Assembly (NCBI GenBank): GCA_026874595.1
Contig: CM049319.1
Location: 64,100,417-64,164,416 of the forward strand
DNA from: Sipunculus nudus
Lineage: Eukaryota; Annelida; Sipuncula; Golfingiida; Sipunculidae
Length of the DNA: 64,000 nt
Direction: 5' to 3'
The stretch's first letter is position 1. Each line of letters begins with the position of its first letter. The position numbers were made by a program, and so were the translations under genes. Below are positions 54,716 through 64,000 of the stretch, in pieces. The notes below the pieces were generated by a model. That model had not been told where the DNA came from, did not search any database, and was given only the letters and a program-made list of their open reading frames with translations.

Positions 54716-54847
54716 TACCTTATCTCGGGCAGCTGCTTGTAAATATGCAAAGGCATATACATATTCATTCATAGATTGCACTGTAAATACTAGTATATAG
54801 CTATGTTTTAATTATTCTCCTGATGGCTGGTATATGGCATCCTGGCC

Positions 54848-54931
54848 CGATTTAATAGGACTCAATATTATAAGGCCCTGCCATATATTGATACATGGTA
54901 GGGTCTAATAGTATTGAGTCAGATTAAATCG
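54848..54931. repeat. 84-nt hairpin with 37-bp imperfect stem
   Basis: The left arm starts CGATTTAATAGGACTCAATA and the right arm ends AGTCAGATTAAATCG. The loop is about 10 nt (ATATTGATAC) with about six mismatches in the stem. The size is like a microRNA precursor or a tiny foldback element. Function unknown. Confidence 0.6.
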
Positions 54932-55037
54932 ATCGAGGTTATGGCAACCGAGATTGTCCGGCTCGGCAATCTGACTTGGCATCCGACTTTTAGATTGTAC
55001 CTCCGCGTTTCACCAGCAGCGACGGTTGTATCTAAAA

Positions 55038-55166
55038 GGGATCACCCTAAACGCGGGTCCGTTCCGCGCACGGACCCGCGCTCAGACAGCGCGGAACTCA
55101 TCTCCCTAAAGGCGGACCTACGCGGACCAGTGCCCTTCCTCAATATAGGTTTTTGTTTTGATTATT
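55038..55166. repeat. MULE left terminal inverted repeat
   Basis: Inverted match to 60330-60466. The inner edge is GTTTTGATTATT; the right copy has a few extra bases within its GC-rich hairpin. Confidence 0.9.
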
Positions 55167-56403
55167 AGTAAATAAAGTTGATTATTAACGAAAGCTGTGT
55201 TTATAACAGTTCTCGATGACTCATATTGGTCTTTTATATAATTTTATATTATAATAAAATGTATATTTGATAACTATAACATTTAATCAACGTCTTTTTG
55301 ATAAAGTATATCTTCATCTAGACGTTCGAGTCAGAACTGCATAAGCATAACAAAAACAAGAAAAAATATAACAATACATTTTGATCATCGTTGCATTCTG
55401 TTTATTAACATTGAACAAAATCATTTCAATAGTCATAATTCACAAACAAGAGGCAGACACACATATAATTCATTAATATACATAAATCTCACAGAAAAGT
55501 AGGTATGACTACATTGAAGCACTGTCACAGATATTATATTCAAGCACTTGCAAAGATCTAGAACTTACAGAATTGTTATAAATTTACTTTAAAATATTTG
55601 AATACATAAAAGATGCCCTTTTCACTAAAGACCAACAGAATCATGATAACATCCTTACATAAATATGCAAGTATCATGTGCATATAATTCATCACAGCTG
55701 ATAAATATTTGCTCGTAAAAAAATCAATATTATATGAAATTGATAAGCTAAGTACATTTGTAAAATGTGAACCTAAAATTATTATACAGTAACACATTAT
55801 ATACTATATTCAAGCACTTTCAGGGATATAGGATGAAAACTTCTAGAATTGCGATAACTCGCGTTTAAAATAAATAAATAGCAACACCGTTGTTTGAATT
55901 AACACATGCAGCACTTTGCGGTGACTATTATAAGAAATTCATTTGTAAGGTGTAAGCGTACAAACATATGCAGTTAATATCATTGAGGCAACTCATAATT
56001 AAAATATATTTGTTGCATCATTAGAAAGTACTAACTTAATCATTTACTACCTCTCTTTCATTCTCATAAAACATACACAAACTTACAAAATTACAACTAC
56101 AAAACACGATAGTTTTACTAACAATACTTCATCTGTTGCCATATCAACATAAACTCCCTATAATCAATTATGGTCCTCCCTGTAACATGATCTCCTAATC
56201 GTCTAACCTAAGAAATAAATCTGACTGAAGAAATTAGATCCAAATGAAGTCACTACACTTAACATATACCTAAATGATTTAGGTCTACACCAATCATATA
56301 TATCACATTGTAGTCTACCTATACCAAGCAAATTGGGTCGACATTGATTTAAAAATGCGACCATGTATCGTAAACATGATCCAAATCATTTCAAGCATTG
56401 TGC
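55167..56403. other. MULE interior, 3' noncoding part
   Basis: AT-rich sequence between the left TIR and the transposase pseudogene. It contains two related phrases near 55532-55556 and 55806-55832 (ATATTCAAGCACTT). No gene is seen. Confidence 0.5.
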
Positions 56404-59400
56404 ACAGTATTTCCTCTTTCCAAAAGTTGTCACTTTTTGGCATGATTTGTGGGACCAGTTTGTGCAACCATATAATTGTCGCCTGTAGTCATGTTTTCTC
56501 CACAATCTGGATAACCACACTGACAATTAATGTTCACAGTGACACGGTATGATTTGAAGCTGATTGGCCTAGAACCTTTCTTTTAGGAAAACATTCCATT
56601 TTCCCTTGCTCTAAACAATAAACTAAGTGACTCCTAAGCATATCTTGATCAAAAATAGAATTTGTTTTTCCGATTTGTATTCCATTAAACTTTGTGAAGC
56701 AAAATTCAACGGTATTTGCAATAGCAAAGAGACCACAGTCTACCATATATCTCTGTTGGTTAAGTATAGGTATGATGCATTCAATTTTCTTTTTGCCAAA
56801 TCCATATATCATAGCGATCTGTATTTGTAAACCAGTTGTGAGTTCCCCCCTGGTCAGGCTGTCCATAACGTACACTGGGCCATCTTTCTCACGCTGGAAC
56901 GTCATCACCCAGTGATAATTGCCAGTGTGGTGAATTTGAACGGTTGGCGCTGTCCTTGATTCAAGTTTTTCGCCAGCGCCATTTACCCATTTTTTTATGT
57001 TGCATCTAAAGTAGGGGCCATCACTGCAGACTGGAACCCATTAATATCTCTAAACTCATCGCTCAACAATTTTTGTACAGCGTGAATGTGTTGGTCACTG
57101 AGAGCGCCTGATTTGTGTTCAATGACAGCCTTATGCTTTTTATTTAAACCATCTACCCATTTTGTCAAGGACAGGCGGCGTTTTTTACCCTTCGTGGCTT
57201 GCGGTTTGTTTTCTATATTGGCCACTGACCTTGATCCCGATTTCCCAGATTTTGATTCCGACTGTTTTTCCGTTTCTAATGGACTCTTGTTTACGTTATT
57301 CAGGATTTGACCGACACTTTGATCAGTGTCTGATTGCAAATTTGGTAAATCGTCTGAGCCCATGTCTTATTTCCTTCGTTTAGCACCTGAATTGGATAAT
57401 CTGAATTGCACTTTCTTTGAGACACTTTTCATCTTTCTGGCACAGTGAACCCTGATAGAAGCATTGACAGTTGGGGTTAACATAGAGGAAACAATGGGAG
57501 AACCAGAAACAGGGTTTGCACTTGCAGGTGAGACTGGAGACTCTGGAATATTAATTGAAGAAGAAGTTGGACCTGGAGTAGAGGTGTATGGTTCAGTGAC
57601 TTACACTGAGTCCGGAGCTGGATCTACAATTGTTGTGTCTGGGTCATAATCCAGAACTCTCGGTTTTTTCCTACCCGATGTTTTGTCAACCCTTTTTCTT
57701 CGATTTTTTCTGAGCTGTTTCAAAGACAGCTTTTTGCCCTTCCCCTCTGCTTCCATGCCAACTGGCTGCCATTATGTGGTGGCATGTCGCAGTTGACCCA
57801 CACCTACAAGTCTCTTTTGGAAAGAGAGTAACAGCATATGGCTTGGCACTGGACCCCTTTACCATAAAGCAAGTCATATCATGAACAAATGTTATGCGTT
57901 TTTGTTCTACGACACATTTCGCTAATGACAGCTGTGATTTCCTCTCCCTGTTTTTTAATTTCCAATTCCCCCTCTATTTTAGTTGCATCTTGCGCATCAC
58001 CATGGTCTTTATTCTCTACCCCTCCGAATTCAGCATCTCTAACAAGCGCTACAATTTTTTCAGGGCTACAAACTGTATCCGGCCAAACACACAGTTCTGG
58101 GTCTTCCTTATAATTAGCAAAGTTGAATTCCTCCCTCAGTACATAGTTTCCCGAATCACTAAACCCCCTGAGTATTTCATTCATATAGAAATTTTGTAAA
58201 TGGTAGAATGAGAGGACCGCGCAATCTACTGGCATTTCCTGCCACTCGTTGAACAATTTGATGACCTTGTTAAATGATTCAGAACTGGTGTTTGTGACCC
58301 CCGAGAAAGCATTGTACAGTCCCCAACGCTCTACCACCCATTTTGCTGCCGATTCCAGTATATCATCCCTCAGGTGATTTTCATAGTAGTCTAACATTGA
58401 TTTTGACCATTTTTGAGAATACCTGGAAAATTTCTCCTCATACTGGGCCAAATTTTCACTTTTCATCAAGTTTTCAACATCCCTGGCATAAATGCCTATA
58501 TCAACATTGCCCCCCTCTTTGGCTCGCAACCAAACTGACATGTCAGTGGTCAGATGATTCCAGCAGTAGAGTGTGTGTGCTTTAGGCAAAGTGCTTTTGA
58601 TCGCACTTGTGATGCCTGCTTCCCAGTCAACTATGATGGGGAACGGTTTTTTTTTTGCTGAGGACAGGGATATTTTCTTGGACACAGCTGAACAGTTTGT
58701 TATGCATCTTTTTGAATTTGTGATCATGAACCATGAATGCCAAAGGAATAGTGGGCGTTGTGTCTTGAGGACTTGTTTTGAACATGGGGTGTTGAAAAGA
58801 GAGTACCGAAACATAAAAGTCACCCAGGTTGAATGTGGTGTCATAGGCTAGAGCGAGAGATTTTGCCTCAATTTGGAGTAAATCATTCAGCTGTTCAGCG
58901 ATCTCATCAAGAATCACAATACATGTAAACTCTGGCCACTAATCAATAACTTTAACATATTTGTCTAGATGCATGGACAACTCATACAAATTGTTCACAT
59001 CATCTGTGCCTAGCCTATTCTTTGCGTCTACGTTTTCCTTAGCACGCTGAGCTTGTTTCGGGTTTCTACAATTGGCGATGCCTTGCCTAGAGCCAACATT
59101 TGTGCCTGTAACAGAATTCTTGTATGTTTTGTTTGGTTTTTGGTATGTGGCCCGCTTTTTCAGAGAATTAATTACCGAAGGATAGGTTATCTTGTGAGGT
59201 CTAGAATTGGTTTTGCTTTTCGCATGTGGCATAGGTTCGGCAACTGTGGCATCACCAATGTAGTGCACTAAAACAATATGAGGGTTTTCATCCAGAGTAT
59301 ATGCATATTTTTTTAAATTCAGAATTAACACCAGTACTTGTCCGTATCACAAAGTATGTCTTACGCATGTAGGTATTCTTTTTTGGAAATGACCTGTTCC

Positions 59401-59537
59401 TGTTGTTTCTCGAAATGAGCCCATCACACCTCCAGTCGTCTACCTTTTCTTTGTTGTTCATAGAGTTGTACAGATAAACCTTCCCTCCCTGTGGTGCCAC
59501 TGGTGCCTCAGTGCAACACAATTCCAGATTTGGGTAA
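56404..59537 (-). pseudogene. MULE transposase pseudogene: CG-1-like, DDE, SWIM, Ulp1 and PHD domains
   Basis: Read on the minus strand. After acceptor TCTCCACAG (59538-59546): GYPNLELCC, PQGGKVYLYN, DDWRCDG, then ENPHIVLVHYIGD (59537-59230), like the CG-1 DNA-binding domain of CAMTA proteins. DDE part (58917-57882): LAYDTTFNLGDFY, VDWEAG, CWNHL and TNTSSESFN, the D-D-C2H-E pattern of MULEs. SWIM: CRCGSTATCHH (about 57797-57829). A charged linker, then a Ulp1/SENP-like protease: HW (H), VMDSL (D), NQQRYMVDCGLFAIA (Q, C). A degraded PHD finger ends it (56404-56545: CQCGYPDCGENM, WSHKSC, YCAQC). Breaks: one extra base in A runs at 59308-59314 and 58647-58656, in-frame TAG at 58939-58941, and shifts near 57910, 56992 and 56530. 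Confidence 0.85.
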
Positions 59538-59615
59538 CCTGTGGAGACAATTAGTTCTGTTAATAGTTAATTTTTATTTTTAATCTTGAAGTTAAGAACA
59601 ATTACAAATTGATAA

Positions 59616-59662
<47 letters not shown>

Positions 59663-60329
59663 GAATATATGAAAATTATGATTATTTCTAATCTTGAAAA
59701 ATTTACGTGCCGTTACAGGTTATTTCTATAAAATTATTTCTTAAATAGCTGGTTAATATGATTGCTTTGAATTTATGAGGAAGAAATTGTTACAAAATAA
59801 TGAGTAAATAATTCTAAGTTGGTTCACAATTTTAAAAGGCAATTTTCTTTTATCTTTTCATTATGTACGTATTATTTGGAATTATGAGCTTGAGTTTTTG
59901 ACAAAATATCTATTATATCTTTCAAACATAATGATTTAGATTAACTGCTCAACACGCAGAGCTTTGAATACTGGATTTTGAACGATAATAATACTAATAA
60001 CAACAACAACTATTATATTATAATTTATTATTAAAATTATTATTAAATCACTACTAAAGGTTATGATACCGTTTGAATTGAAAAGCTTATTATGCTCAAT
60101 ATTGAGTATGATGATAATGAATTCAAATACAATCTACTTCATTGGTTTCAGGGAAACAGAGTACATGTACGGCTAAGACAGTAAATAGAGCTCGAGATCC
60201 AAGTAAGGTTTTGCTACAGAAAAAAAATTGTGATTACATTTTTTATTTTAATGAACTTTAACTCCGCATTCGTTAATAGGGACATGTACAAAAGGCACGA
60301 CATTTGTTGAATATCAAATATTAATCAGA
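59538..60329. other. MULE interior, 5' noncoding part
   Basis: AT-rich DNA with a TA microsatellite (59618-59658) and AATAAT/AACAAC runs (59985-60050). An upstream coding exon is expected because the gene enters through a splice acceptor at 59538, but none could be identified. Confidence 0.45.
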
Positions 60330-60466
60330 AATAATCAAAACAAAAAGCATATATTGAGGAAGGGCACTGGTCCGCGTAGGTCCGCGTTTAGGGAGAGGAG
60401 TTCCGCGCTGTCTGAGCGCGGGTCCGTGCGCGGGGCCGCGCACGGACCCGCGTTTAGGGTGATCCC
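60330..60466. repeat. MULE right terminal inverted repeat
   Basis: Partner of 55038-55166. It contains a palindromic block GTGCGCGGGGCCGCGCAC, followed by GGACCCGCGTTTAGGGTGAT and CCC. Confidence 0.9.
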
Positions 60467-60475
60467 TATCTAAAA

Positions 60476-60720
60476 CCCGGAGATCTCCGGCCGGAGATCA
60501 AAATAAAACCCGGAGATCGCGATATCTGAATTAATAAGGCAGCAATTGGTATTAAACGTTCCCCTTGACACTTCTAAATGACATCCGCATCGAATATGAT
60601 ACTTAATTTACAAGTGCACAAGGTATTTATTCAGTTATCCACGGAAACCTCACCCGGAGACGACCCGGAGATCGTCCGGAGACCGCCATCTTGCCCGGAG
60701 ATCCGCCAATGAGTGCTTCC
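60476..60720. repeat. Cluster of CCCGGAGATC motifs
   Basis: At least seven copies of CCGGAGA(T/C) occur in 245 bp, including the palindrome GATCTCCGGCCGGAGATC at about 60483-60500. It lies between the complete MULE and the second, partial one. It could be the subterminal region of an element or a regulatory cluster; no gene is seen. Confidence 0.55.
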
Positions 60721-61289
60721 CACTGATTCCCACTCGCCACAACAGATGCCGCCACATACATGTCTGACTTCCCCGCTCTGATATGTTATATCGTTTACGA
60801 GTCTAATTGATTGGAACTGTCACTAAAATACGTATATTGTTTAAAAAACTGTTTAATACACTAATCACATATTCTGTTTACCAATTTTCTATTTCTGAAA
60901 ACTCTTGAATGTTTGTAATATGTTTATAACTAATTATATTTTCTTGCATAGTATACAGAATATTTTCTTTTAGTATAAATTTTATAGTAAAATATGTGAT
61001 AATATATAAAATAGTTTAATTTGATAATTACATAGAGAAATTATCGTAACCTCAACTATCCTTAATTTTTTAATGGTATAAAGGGTATGCATTAAATATG
61101 GAAATATAGAAATTATAAAACATATAAAATAGTATGTCAAATATGAGGTTTACTTAATATTGAAATATCGAAATTATAAAAAATATAAAAACTATGTCAA
61201 AAACAGCGTATCCAGTTAGATTATGGTGTTTTGGCTAATTGGCACATGAGCACCTTAAGGGTACCTGCCTCATAGCCGCGTAATTTGTT
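60721..61289. other. AT-rich spacer before the second MULE-like gene
   Basis: Noncoding. A diverged direct repeat of about 55 bp (61097-61141 and 61159-61203; phrase GAAATTATAAAA(C/A)ATATAAAA) is present. No element end could be fixed. Confidence 0.5.
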
Positions 61290-64000
61290 TTAACTTAATA
61301 ATGATTGCATTATATTCTCTGTATTTCTGCTCTGGGAATGCATATTCATTGTTTGCTCCGATATATCTTCAGGTACATTTGCACAAATATTATGCCACCA
61401 TATATCACAAATTGAACATGTTATCATATTTCCATAAAAATAGTCAGGATATTTGCATGGACAGTGTAATATTATCTCATGGTGCACATGTTTAACCTTG
61501 ACAGGACGTTTTCGCTGAATTTTTGGAAACGGTGTGAAATTTTTTTGCTCTAAATAGTTTTTTAAATGGGTTTTCATTCTATTTTCATCATATACCAAGT
61601 CACTAATTTTATCATTTAACCAACTGTTCGGCCTATTGTTGGAAAATTCAACCGCGTTGGCGATCGCATATACCCCACAATCTGAGTTATTATTCTGCAA
61701 CACGGCATTCACTACCGAAACATGCAATTTAGATTGCTCCAAATTGTAGTTTTTTGGCAAAGCTGTATTTCTGTTGAGGAAGTAAGACTCTTTGCAGCCC
61801 CACGCAAACTATCTATTATAAACAGACCCCTCTCATCTGGTCGGACCGATATAAGCCAATGTGAATGTCCAGTGAAATGTATTTGTACACACGGGCCTTT
61901 ACGAGAACCTATATTTTTAAAACCTGTTTCTGGCACGATCCATTTGTTTCGTTCATCATTGAAGCAAGGTGTCAGAGTAGTATCTTGGAATCCGATTATT
62001 TCTGGATATTGGTTTTTGTAAAATTATTTGCGCAGCACGAATATGTTTATCTGAAAGCCAGGAATCGTTTTCTATTTCTCCTTTGTTTTGAACTGTTAGT
62101 CCGAATTCATGCAGCCAATACCTCGCTCGGCATGTCTCCTTTTCTGGCGAATAATGTACTAAAATTAGCGATATCGGATTTGCTTTTCCCTTTTAAAAGG
62201 GGCATAATCAGGGGCTAGTCTTTGCCTATTCGTTCACTTTATCAGTTCAGTTTTACTTTATACAAATGTTTCCCAGCAAAAATATCCAAGCACACGGTCT
62301 TATATCCTCGCATTCGGCTGTTTGACACAATGTTACGGCTCTGCGTGTTGGTAAACACAGTCTGTTTACCAAAAGAAGACCGCGTGACCGGAGGTCCGAT
62401 AAAGAGGGATAACACGCGGTGTTTCAGCCAGCGCGAACATGTATTATATTTTTTGGGTCAAGTCAGGCAGGGCATCTCTTGATTGATACGTGTTTTGGCT
62501 CAGCGATGCACATGACCCCACGCGTTGTGTTTATGCCGACACCTGTCATCGCGCCCGGTCCACTGTTTTTAACATTCGTTTTCAGGAGAAAGCAAACGGT
62601 TTCAGGGCAATATTTTGGCAGGTACAGATTTATTTTAAATGGAAGAAGTTATTCTTCGTGTTTACTCACCATGCTTTATTGGTGATTGGGTCCCTTTAAC
62701 TGAAACGTTGTTTTCTATAATGTCGACAATAATTTCGTTTTAGCGAGAGTCGATTTCTTTTTTGTTTTTGTTGGTATTATCTTCGGGGATTTCTTACGAA
62801 TATCGCTTAGCGGGCGATTAAATTCGTCAGAGATCTCACAATTTTCCTGTGTTATTTTATTTATGGTCTGTTTAGGTGTAGAGGACGCACTTATTTCAAA
62901 AGATTGTGTATCGATAATGCTTTCCGGCATCCCTACTGGACTACAATTTGGAGTTGGAAGCGAGGATGAACTGTCGTCTTTACTTTTTTCTTTACTGTTA
63001 TTATTATTCTCGCCAAAATCAAGTCTAATTCTCACTCGTTTCCGTTCTGAATTTTTCAAAATTGATTTTGGTGTTTTTTTAACTGTAACATTATTAAATG
63101 GGGTTTTGGCCGGGGTAGCTTGTGTCTTAATTTTATCAACAGTACCCTGTTTAGTTTTTTTTTTTTTTGTTTTGTTTCGAAACGGGAACCGGGTCATCTA
63201 GCTCGGGAGATTGCATGCATGCAGAGATCTATCTCTAGTCGAGGTTATCATGGAAACATCGGTATCGAGAGCATGCAGCTTCAAATTCGTACACGAAATC
63301 TGATTTTCTCGGCTGTTTTCTACCCGTTTTTCTAGCCACCCTTTTCTTACTACGCCGAGACAATAGTGAAACATTTAGTTTGCGTTTTTGATCGATTACA
63401 TCCATACCTATAGATTTCCTGGCTGCAAGAATATGGTAGCAAATATTTGTTGCTGCGCACTGACATTTTTCTTTTGGGAACAGAGTTACCGTATATTTAT
63501 TGTCATTGTTGCCCTCCACAATGAAAGTACTAAATTTCGCAACTAATTCTATTTTCCCGTTATTGATTATATCTTGTGCCCTTTCAAGTTGTGTCAGGTA
63601 TTTTCTAATGAATTCCGAATTTATGTTTTCCTCTTTCTTATCTCCGCATCAGCATGCAACAAATCTGATTGAAGTGACGGGGGATCAGACATGAACTGGT
63701 TTATATCGTTTTTACCTTTTCAACTATTAGTCCCGGGGCGCATGTATTCTTGGGGAATGGTTGATCCTCAGGGTTTTCTAATAAATGCATTTATTCTGAC
63801 TTTAAATGATAGGAACCTAAATTACAATAACCCCGCAAAACTTCTTTCAGATAATAATTTTGAAGATAATAAATGCACAGCGTCAAAGATTGTTGGTGCT
63901 TCTTTCCAATTTCTTAGACGTTTAATTACAGCATTAAACGATTCAGCTCCGTTGTTGGTAACTCCGAAGGCACTGTCATACACGTTACACTCTTCTAAAA
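61290..64000 (-). pseudogene. Second MULE-like transposase gene, partial and broken: DDE, SWIM, Ulp1, PHD
   Basis: It runs off the right edge. In minus-strand order: MULE catalytic end AFGVTNNGAESFNAVIKRL (about 63910-63975); SWIM finger KCQCAATNICYHILAA (about 63433-63480); a lysine/serine-rich linker (63197-62715, SILKNSERKRVRIRLDFGE); then a Ulp1-like protease with SHWLISV (H), LFIIDSL (D) and LQNNNSDCGVYAIANAVEF (Q, C). A PHD finger follows (CPCKYPDYFYGNMITC, then CDIWWHNIC). Stop at 61290. Frame breaks lie near 61755, about 62000 and about 63640, and 62222-62714 has no clear coding (possible intron). Protein similarity to 56404-59537 is clear, but the DNA is strongly diverged, so it is a different lineage. 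Confidence 0.8.

Follow-up and report, generated by a model that had tools for sequence, protein, structure and literature searches.

Are a protease and a PHD finger encoded downstream of a transposase working parts of the transposon, or passengers that it has picked up? A 64,000-nucleotide stretch of the Sipunculus nudus genome (C14:64100417-64164416; the window) raises this question. Its minus strand carries two diverged genes, copy 1 and copy 2, in which a preliminary description had read the same order of MULE transposase, SWIM finger, SUMO-type Ulp1 protease and PHD finger. We followed these genes through the 1.43-Gb assembly that contains the window (loci are given L numbers and sequences of the assembly C numbers). 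The two genes are probably dead members of one Mutator-superfamily branch, the older with the younger inserted into its terminal repeat, and the intact form of this branch would be one multidomain protein working as proposed below.

One open frame in an intact relative

An intact homologue with a single open reading frame, for which the preliminary description had suggested a search, was found in the same assembly. Locus L039 (C14:61.53 Mb) holds one frame of 1,248 amino acids between stop codons (the first Met is residue 80), which runs in order through a CG-1-like domain, the MULE DDE domain, a SWIM-like motif, a Ulp1-like protease and a PHD finger, and shares 37% protein identity with copy 1, the gene of what we call element 1. 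The L039 element is 8,993 bp long with terminal inverted repeats (TIRs) of 285 bp (98%), and a sister copy at C17:19.1 Mb (L040), whose CG-1 part is frameshifted, is 99.74% identical to it across 8,524 bp. Pfam scored MULE (3e-8, 34.4 bits) and PHD (1.8e-5) of L039 over the curated cut-offs, and CG-1 (4.8e-4) and C48, the Ulp1-like protease profile (0.054), under them; these cut-offs are 27.6 bits for MULE, 20.7 for C48 and 23.5 for CG-1. The single open frame, together with the 99.7% identical sister copy, therefore makes these domains one transposon protein in this branch, and it rules out, for the L039 family, that they belong to a neighbouring host gene. In the loci examined we saw neither a failure of the profiles to find C48 or PHD nor a placement of these domains in a separate host gene.

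Merging 124 genome matches to the copy 1 DDE piece gave 104 MULE loci, and in 44 of them a C48 match follows on the same strand, usually 1-2 kb downstream, where random placement would give ~0.02 (92 of 150 C48 matches entered the count, with a limit of 6 kb downstream; the loci are not independent, six of the 44 being one tandem array). These counts rule out a chance order of the domains.

The protease is also as constrained as the transposase. In three family pairs the proportion of nonsynonymous differences (pN) is 0.40, 0.41 and 0.44 for C48 versus 0.40, 0.40 and 0.41 for DDE, while synonymous differences (pS) stand at 0.76-0.86 and are saturated; in a fourth pair, L041-L042, changes were too few to compare the two domains. 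Ratios of nonsynonymous to synonymous rates (dN/dS) for C48 are 0.42, 0.46 and 0.52 within the element-1 family, partly through pseudogene drift; 0.21 for L042-L052 and 0.24 for L052-L053, with dS above 1.6; 0.51 for L053-L028, 0.59 for L042-L062 and 0.66 for L045-L031; and 0.11 for copy 2-L046, with dS 4.6. We left out a value of 1.17 for copy 2-L033, since frames are mixed in the L033 row; the remaining C48 pairs yielded no dS. The PHD tails range from 0.30 to 1.74, the top value coming from the frameshifted L046 tail and likewise set aside. Single frame, co-location and constraint together bear out the earlier claim that protease and PHD finger belong to the transposase protein.

Two further loci, L041 and L042, belong to the element-1 family (~96% DNA identity to element 1, in blocks of 3.5-3.7 kb). 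With L040 aside, DDE pieces are 34-50% identical to L039 (59% in one 24-residue piece), C48 pieces 24-42% (54% in one 22-residue piece) and PHD fingers 31-37% (47.5% in L047, on the other strand); the linker is 24% identical in L046 and 38% over 39 residues in copy 2, and was undetected in the remaining loci. The first and second Asp of the DDE domain are spaced by 64 and 69 residues. Target-site duplications (TSDs), read by eye, are 9 bp in L039 (TGCTGCCCC), L040 (CCATTACCA), L042 (CTTTTCCCC) and L045 (CTTATGCTG), 8 bp in L041 (AAATATCT) and 9-10 bp, with imperfect tips, in L046 (GGGAACGTG(G)). The Mutator hallmarks, TSDs of 8-11 bp and terminal inverted repeats, are thus found in element 1, L039-L042, L045 and L046; the TSD of the element that carries copy 2 (element 2) matches at 8/9 bases. 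Two scans of viral contigs and one of prokaryote contigs returned no relatives.

A second open frame lies within the TIRs of L039 (L039:7961-9064) and L040 (L040:7709-8812). It matches NADAR (1.4e-30) and GDSL hydrolase (6e-8), is 99.5% identical between the two loci, and was not found in the window or in eight other loci tested. NADAR domains have been published for brown alga Gypsy elements and oyster LINEs (PMC12477816), and a literature search on NADAR and transposons gave no Mutator case in the titles among the matches listed.

Other copies show histories of their own. Six head-to-tail copies at ~3.7 kb spacing (G000:C15:63405001-63431000; L047, L016-L020, L022, L053-L058) repeat a fragment in which DDE, SWIM-like and protease portions are present; two L047 units are 99.4% identical over 2,162 bp. 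In 22 genome matches on many contigs, one and the same stretch of the protease (residues 110-156) recurs at 67% identity; these may represent a short non-autonomous family with a protease tail. Another MULE family has dozens of 607-amino-acid open frames, most at 47.6 bits, and is probably a recent burst.

Two nested elements in the window

The locus had been drawn as one composite at 56404..64000; we corrected this extent to two nested elements (Table 1). Element 1 occupies 55038-60466 (5,429 bp), bounds that we set because its inverted repeats are flanked by TATCTAAAA on both sides; 55037-55166 and 60330-60467 align at 91% over 138 columns. Terminal repeats of another family (L025, L029, L030, L033, L034, L036, L037 and L038) match the DNA that follows on the right, and the tip of that family reads GGGTGTATCTAAAACCCGG in L030 and, beyond the window, in L043. 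With GGTTGTATCTAAAA to its left and TATCTAAAACCCGG to its right, element 1 therefore inserted at a distance of 14 bp from the tip of element 2, which spans 55024 to ~66329 in window numbering, or ~2.3 kb past the window, where the right copy of its TSD also lies. The left tip of element 2 reads GGTTGTATCTAAAA in the window versus GGGTGTATCTAAAA in relatives, beginning GGT where those relatives begin GGG; tips also begin GGG in element 1, L039, L040, L041, L042 and L045. From this nesting it follows that copy 1 is the guest and copy 2 the host. Both window genes are broken.

Table 1. Features of elements 1 and 2, in window positions
Feature	Positions	Strand	Remark
TSD of element 2, left copy AGCAGCGAC	55015..55023		right copy AGTAGCGAC; 8/9 bases match
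Left tip of element 2, GGTTGTATCTAAAA, severed from the remainder by element 1	55024..55037		same tip in L030, L043
TSD (9 bp) of element 1, left copy TATCTAAAA	55029..55037		perfect match to right copy
Left TIR of element 1, begins GGGATCACCC	55038..55166		~130 bp
PHD finger of copy 1, decayed (frameshift; one zinc ligand gone)	56388..56520	-	close relatives L041, L042 retain PHD
Ulp1-like (C48) protease of copy 1; H, D, Q, C present	56582..57072	-	
SWIM-like CxC..CxH region of copy 1	57610..57901	-	41-45% to L039; motif only
DDE domain (MULE transposase) of copy 1	58137..58863	-	
CG-1-like N-terminal domain of copy 1 (predicted)	59170..59509	-	Pfam 1.7e-4, below cut-off
Right TIR of element 1	60330..60466		pairs with left repeat
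TSD of element 1, right copy TATCTAAAA	60467..60475		
Remainder of long left terminal repeat of element 2	60476..61202		matches L034 and L036 at both ends
PHD finger of copy 2	61368..61520	-	
Ulp1-like protease of copy 2, internal frameshift	61521..62017	-	
SWIM-like region of copy 2	63298..63561	-	
DDE domain of copy 2, C-terminal part	63734..63986	-	continues beyond window (L043)

We scored the window genes with Pfam twice, as single open pieces and as read-throughs with X at each break. Scored piece by piece, every match stayed under its cut-off: MULE 7.7e-4 and C48 0.0076 for copy 1, C48 4.5e-4 and PHD 0.0012 for copy 2. Two matches passed on read-through, that of MULE in copy 1 at 28.2 bits and that of C48 in copy 2 at 22.0 bits. 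Queries made from the L039 domains matched CG-1, DDE, SWIM and C48 in copy 1, and DDE (C-terminal part), SWIM, C48 and PHD in copy 2. Most of the copy 2 DDE domain lies outside the window, and L043 has its second half, without residues 1-97 of the DDE query. The PHD finger of copy 1 gave no match to Pfam on read-through or to the L039 PHD query, and was detected in two pieces (2.2e-6, 2.8e-7) by a profile of relatives; the L039 PHD query does match L041 and L042, the close relatives of copy 1. With tblastn, pieces of copy 2 align collinearly to copy 1; some weak matches elsewhere are due to chance. The domain order described for both genes therefore stands as a collinear series of MULE, SWIM-like, protease and PHD pieces, with the copy 1 PHD decayed and SWIM reduced to a motif, and the H-D-Q-C set noted in both proteases is indeed retained.

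Some features of the surrounding DNA deserve mention. About 500 bp within the copy 2 gene (62198-62694) are absent from L029, L033 and L037, through either an insertion here or a deletion common to those three. The far end of element 2 (L043; 65635-66329 in window numbering) has additional copies of the terminal arm in both orientations, in a foldback-like arrangement, and a palindrome with 48-bp arms, 79% complementary and 2 bp apart, lies in the left flank of element 2 (54841-54938). In the wider assembly, small contigs C60-C89 and C123 gave COX1-family matches with long open frames; we take the one on C123 to be a cbb3-type subunit of bacterial origin, and bacterial contigs are therefore probably present in the assembly.

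Predicted roles of the domains

CG-1 is the DNA-binding domain of CAMTA factors. A CG-1-like N-terminal domain, absent from the preliminary description, is predicted here from Pfam and L039 query matches. Copy 1 (21.8 bits), L039 (20.3) and L042 (20.1) all score under the cut-off, and L032 (31.1) and L048 (26.5), from two sister families, score over it, with pieces joined across gaps and covering positions 10-114 of 116; among five sister pieces, two pass, two reach 18.2-18.5 bits and one gives no match. The domain lies upstream of a MULE in 23 of 27 places, and a PDB search with its alignment gave a best match at E 0.53. The CGCG box is the motif associated with CG-1, and the TIRs of the element-1 family hold 5-9 such boxes per arm versus 0.5-1.9 expected; two L046 stretches hold 0 and 1, the second of which measures 2.2 kb and is no clean arm. 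We rejected the CGCG box as a general CG-1 target, and with dense boxes confined to the element-1 family, binding of the ends is backed by that family only. We found no paper describing a CG-1 domain in a transposase: a literature search for 'CG-1 domain' with 'transposase' brought up a CAMTA review, a broader one gave none with 'CG-1 domain' among the matches listed, and a word search of a survey of transposon-derived regulators in animals (PMC10027918) showed that it names neither CG-1 nor CAMTA.

The L039 PHD domain on its own scores 3.7e-8 in Pfam, and it comes closest to ASH1L, ING1 and PHF2; in the PDB, a profile of protease-PHD tails matches the PHD fingers of PHF2, Spp1 and ASH1L (4e-6 to 6e-5). 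The Met and Trp of the L039 finger align with those of PHF2 and presumably form part of a cage for methylated K4. Four SWIM-like pieces contain CxC..CxH, which we take to be the SWIM motif.

The catalytic residues of the protease, counted by eye in 20 merged rows (several from one family, many decayed), are conserved among the rows covering each column, with His in 17/17, Asp in 14/17 and Cys in 15/19; the full H-D-Q-C set is present in both window copies, L039 and L042. Its family is less clear-cut than 'SUMO-type' implies, a label that we consider too specific. The L039 domain alone scores alike with RickCE (0.0012), C48 (0.0029) and YopJ-type (0.003) profiles, all of which we take to be CE-clan families; the protease-PHD tail profile finds Ulp2 (0.0012) and SENP8 (0.0026) in the PDB, and phmmer, given the protease by itself, picks out a ULP-type protease (0.025) and OtDUB, a deubiquitinase (0.05). 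A phmmer match to 'Ika8' (0.00026 over 23 residues) was not used. The domain could thus quite plausibly be a deubiquitinase, a deNEDDylase, a YopJ-like acetyltransferase or a self-cleaver of the transposase rather than a deSUMOylase, although in the copy 2 read-through C48 clearly leads (22.0 versus 17.1 bits for the YopJ type).

In the intact protein, as we propose it, the CG-1-like domain comes first, followed by the DDE transposase and the SWIM-like zinc site; a linker of poor conservation then leads to the cysteine protease (CE clan, Ulp1-like) and the PHD finger. The CG-1-like domain and SWIM-like site would bind the terminal repeats, and the DDE domain would cut and join with a 9-bp stagger. 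The PHD finger would dock the complex on histone H3, probably K4-methylated, while the protease would free proteins of silencing or repair at the site, or the transposase itself, of a ubiquitin-like modifier (SUMO, NEDD8 or ubiquitin). The substrate, the histone reading and the anti-silencing role are our inference.

Several results weigh against this account. A genome search with the CG-1 profile (six candidates scored) returned one match, a host CAMTA-like exon (L064, C15:62.2 Mb) that presumably resembles animal rather than plant CAMTA, and no transposon copy; the transposon CG-1 alignment matches this exon weakly, though collinearly (hhalign E 0.014, probability 3.2%, 28% over 65 columns). 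The arms of L039 and L045 contain 0 CGCG boxes. No C48 match lies within 6 kb downstream in 60 of the 104 MULE loci, and in six C48 is upstream or on the wrong strand. The PHD tail is under weaker constraint in the one pair measured (pN 0.52, pS 0.68, 61 codons). C48 scores below the Pfam cut-off in L039, L041 and L042 (13.2-17.9 bits versus 20.7), Pfam SWIM matched none of the four pieces scored, and an AlphaFold model of the copy 1 protease (three window rows) was unreliable (mean pLDDT 37.9) and was not used.

That protease and PHD finger are parts of the transposase protein is settled for this branch, and its near-identical copies within one assembly are open to study. More tentatively, this animal Mutator branch might carry a chromatin-access kit in one protein, in which CG-1 finds the ends, the CE-clan protease strips ubiquitin-like marks and PHD docks on histones of active genes, and its CG-1 might share an origin with that of CAMTA. 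If a transposon both read histones and took off ubiquitin-like marks, it would offer a compact model of target choice and opening. CG-1 in a transposase would connect CAMTA with those regulators whose DNA-binding domains also occur in transposons: given a common origin, which a tree could test, either CAMTA may be another transposase-born regulator or the transposase acquired CG-1 from CAMTA.

Comparison with known systems

It is possible, and we give the idea some weight without favouring it, that these are ordinary animal Mutator or Rehavkus-type elements in which Ulp1 and PHD are known, CG-1 is an unlisted N-terminal DNA-binding domain, and the mechanism is not new. Hydra and lancelet Mutators have been reported to carry Ulp1, and a figure legend in the same paper aligns Ulp1 and PHD domains of Ginger1 transposases, Mutator transposases and a yeast protein, leaving unspecified which rows bear PHD (Bao 2010, PMC2836005). 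Rehavkus is listed with a PHD finger, a 9-bp TSD and TIRs of 26-400 bp, while neither Ulp1 nor CG-1 appears under any group in Table 1 of that work, which also failed to confirm lancelet MULE transposases of another report (Dupeyron 2019, PMC6446971). The PHD finger, called less familiar on an animal version in the preliminary description, thus has precedents. The main text of a 2026 arthropod MULE survey contains no word starting PHD, SWIM, protease or Ulp1 (PMC13359780). Also at odds with an ordinary Rehavkus, Tandem Repeats Finder (TRF) detected no minisatellite before the TIR in element 1, in L039 and L042, or in what L043 contains of element 2. It reported nothing but a TA run in element 1, nothing but TA, TC and ATT runs inside the element in L042, nothing but GA runs within element 2 in L043, and short arrays with one two-copy 103-bp repeat in L039. 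In L041 it reported one 148-bp unit x1.9 (L041:8692-8976, 100% identical), which includes the TIR at the element end and the flank and is a post-insertion duplication. Taken by their sequence features, we regard the elements as members of the Mutator superfamily whose Ulp1-PHD combination appears largely known already, the predicted CG-1-like domain being the addition.

That the protease and PHD finger are captured host passengers without function, in the style of Pack-MULEs, is very improbable: transposons do capture genes, and L039 and L040 may have done so with their NADAR-GDSL gene, but the two domains share the frame of the transposase and are found in distant families, and the constraint on the protease, equal to that on DDE with pN about half of saturated pS in three family pairs, rules out a pure passenger. 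A domesticated host gene, which the long open frame of L039 might suggest, can be dismissed, since TIRs and TSDs surround the frame, near-identical copies lie on two chromosomes and broken relatives are many.

Among known systems, CAMTA factors are not known to carry a transposase, protease or PHD finger, and resemble the intact protein in the CG-1 domain, the host exon L064 having collinear motifs. The MuDR elements of hydra and lancelet are alike in being Mutator transposons that encode Ulp1, and differ, compared by description only, in that the account of them in Bao 2010 does not mention CG-1 (PMC2836005). Rehavkus shares a 9-bp TSD, long TIRs, a PHD finger and a Mutator-like DDE, whereas no protease or CG-1 is listed for it and its TIRs of at most 400 bp compare with terminal repeats of 0.6-0.7 kb in element 2 and L045 (PMC6446971). 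We did not file our elements as Rehavkus because its minisatellite was not found here and the comparison was by description only. Ginger1 has a C-terminal Ulp1, and Ulp1 with PHD in one family, Ginger1-9_HM, but its transposase is of integrase type with CCGG/CCGT target duplications, versus a MULE with a 9-bp TSD here (as described in Bao 2010, PMC2836005). Although its PHD finger is on a second protein, its transposase is of Transib type and a protease is absent from its description, the RAG transposon (RAG1L/RAG2L) is like these elements in that a PHD finger borne by a transposon stands beside a DDE transposase (PMC4411706).

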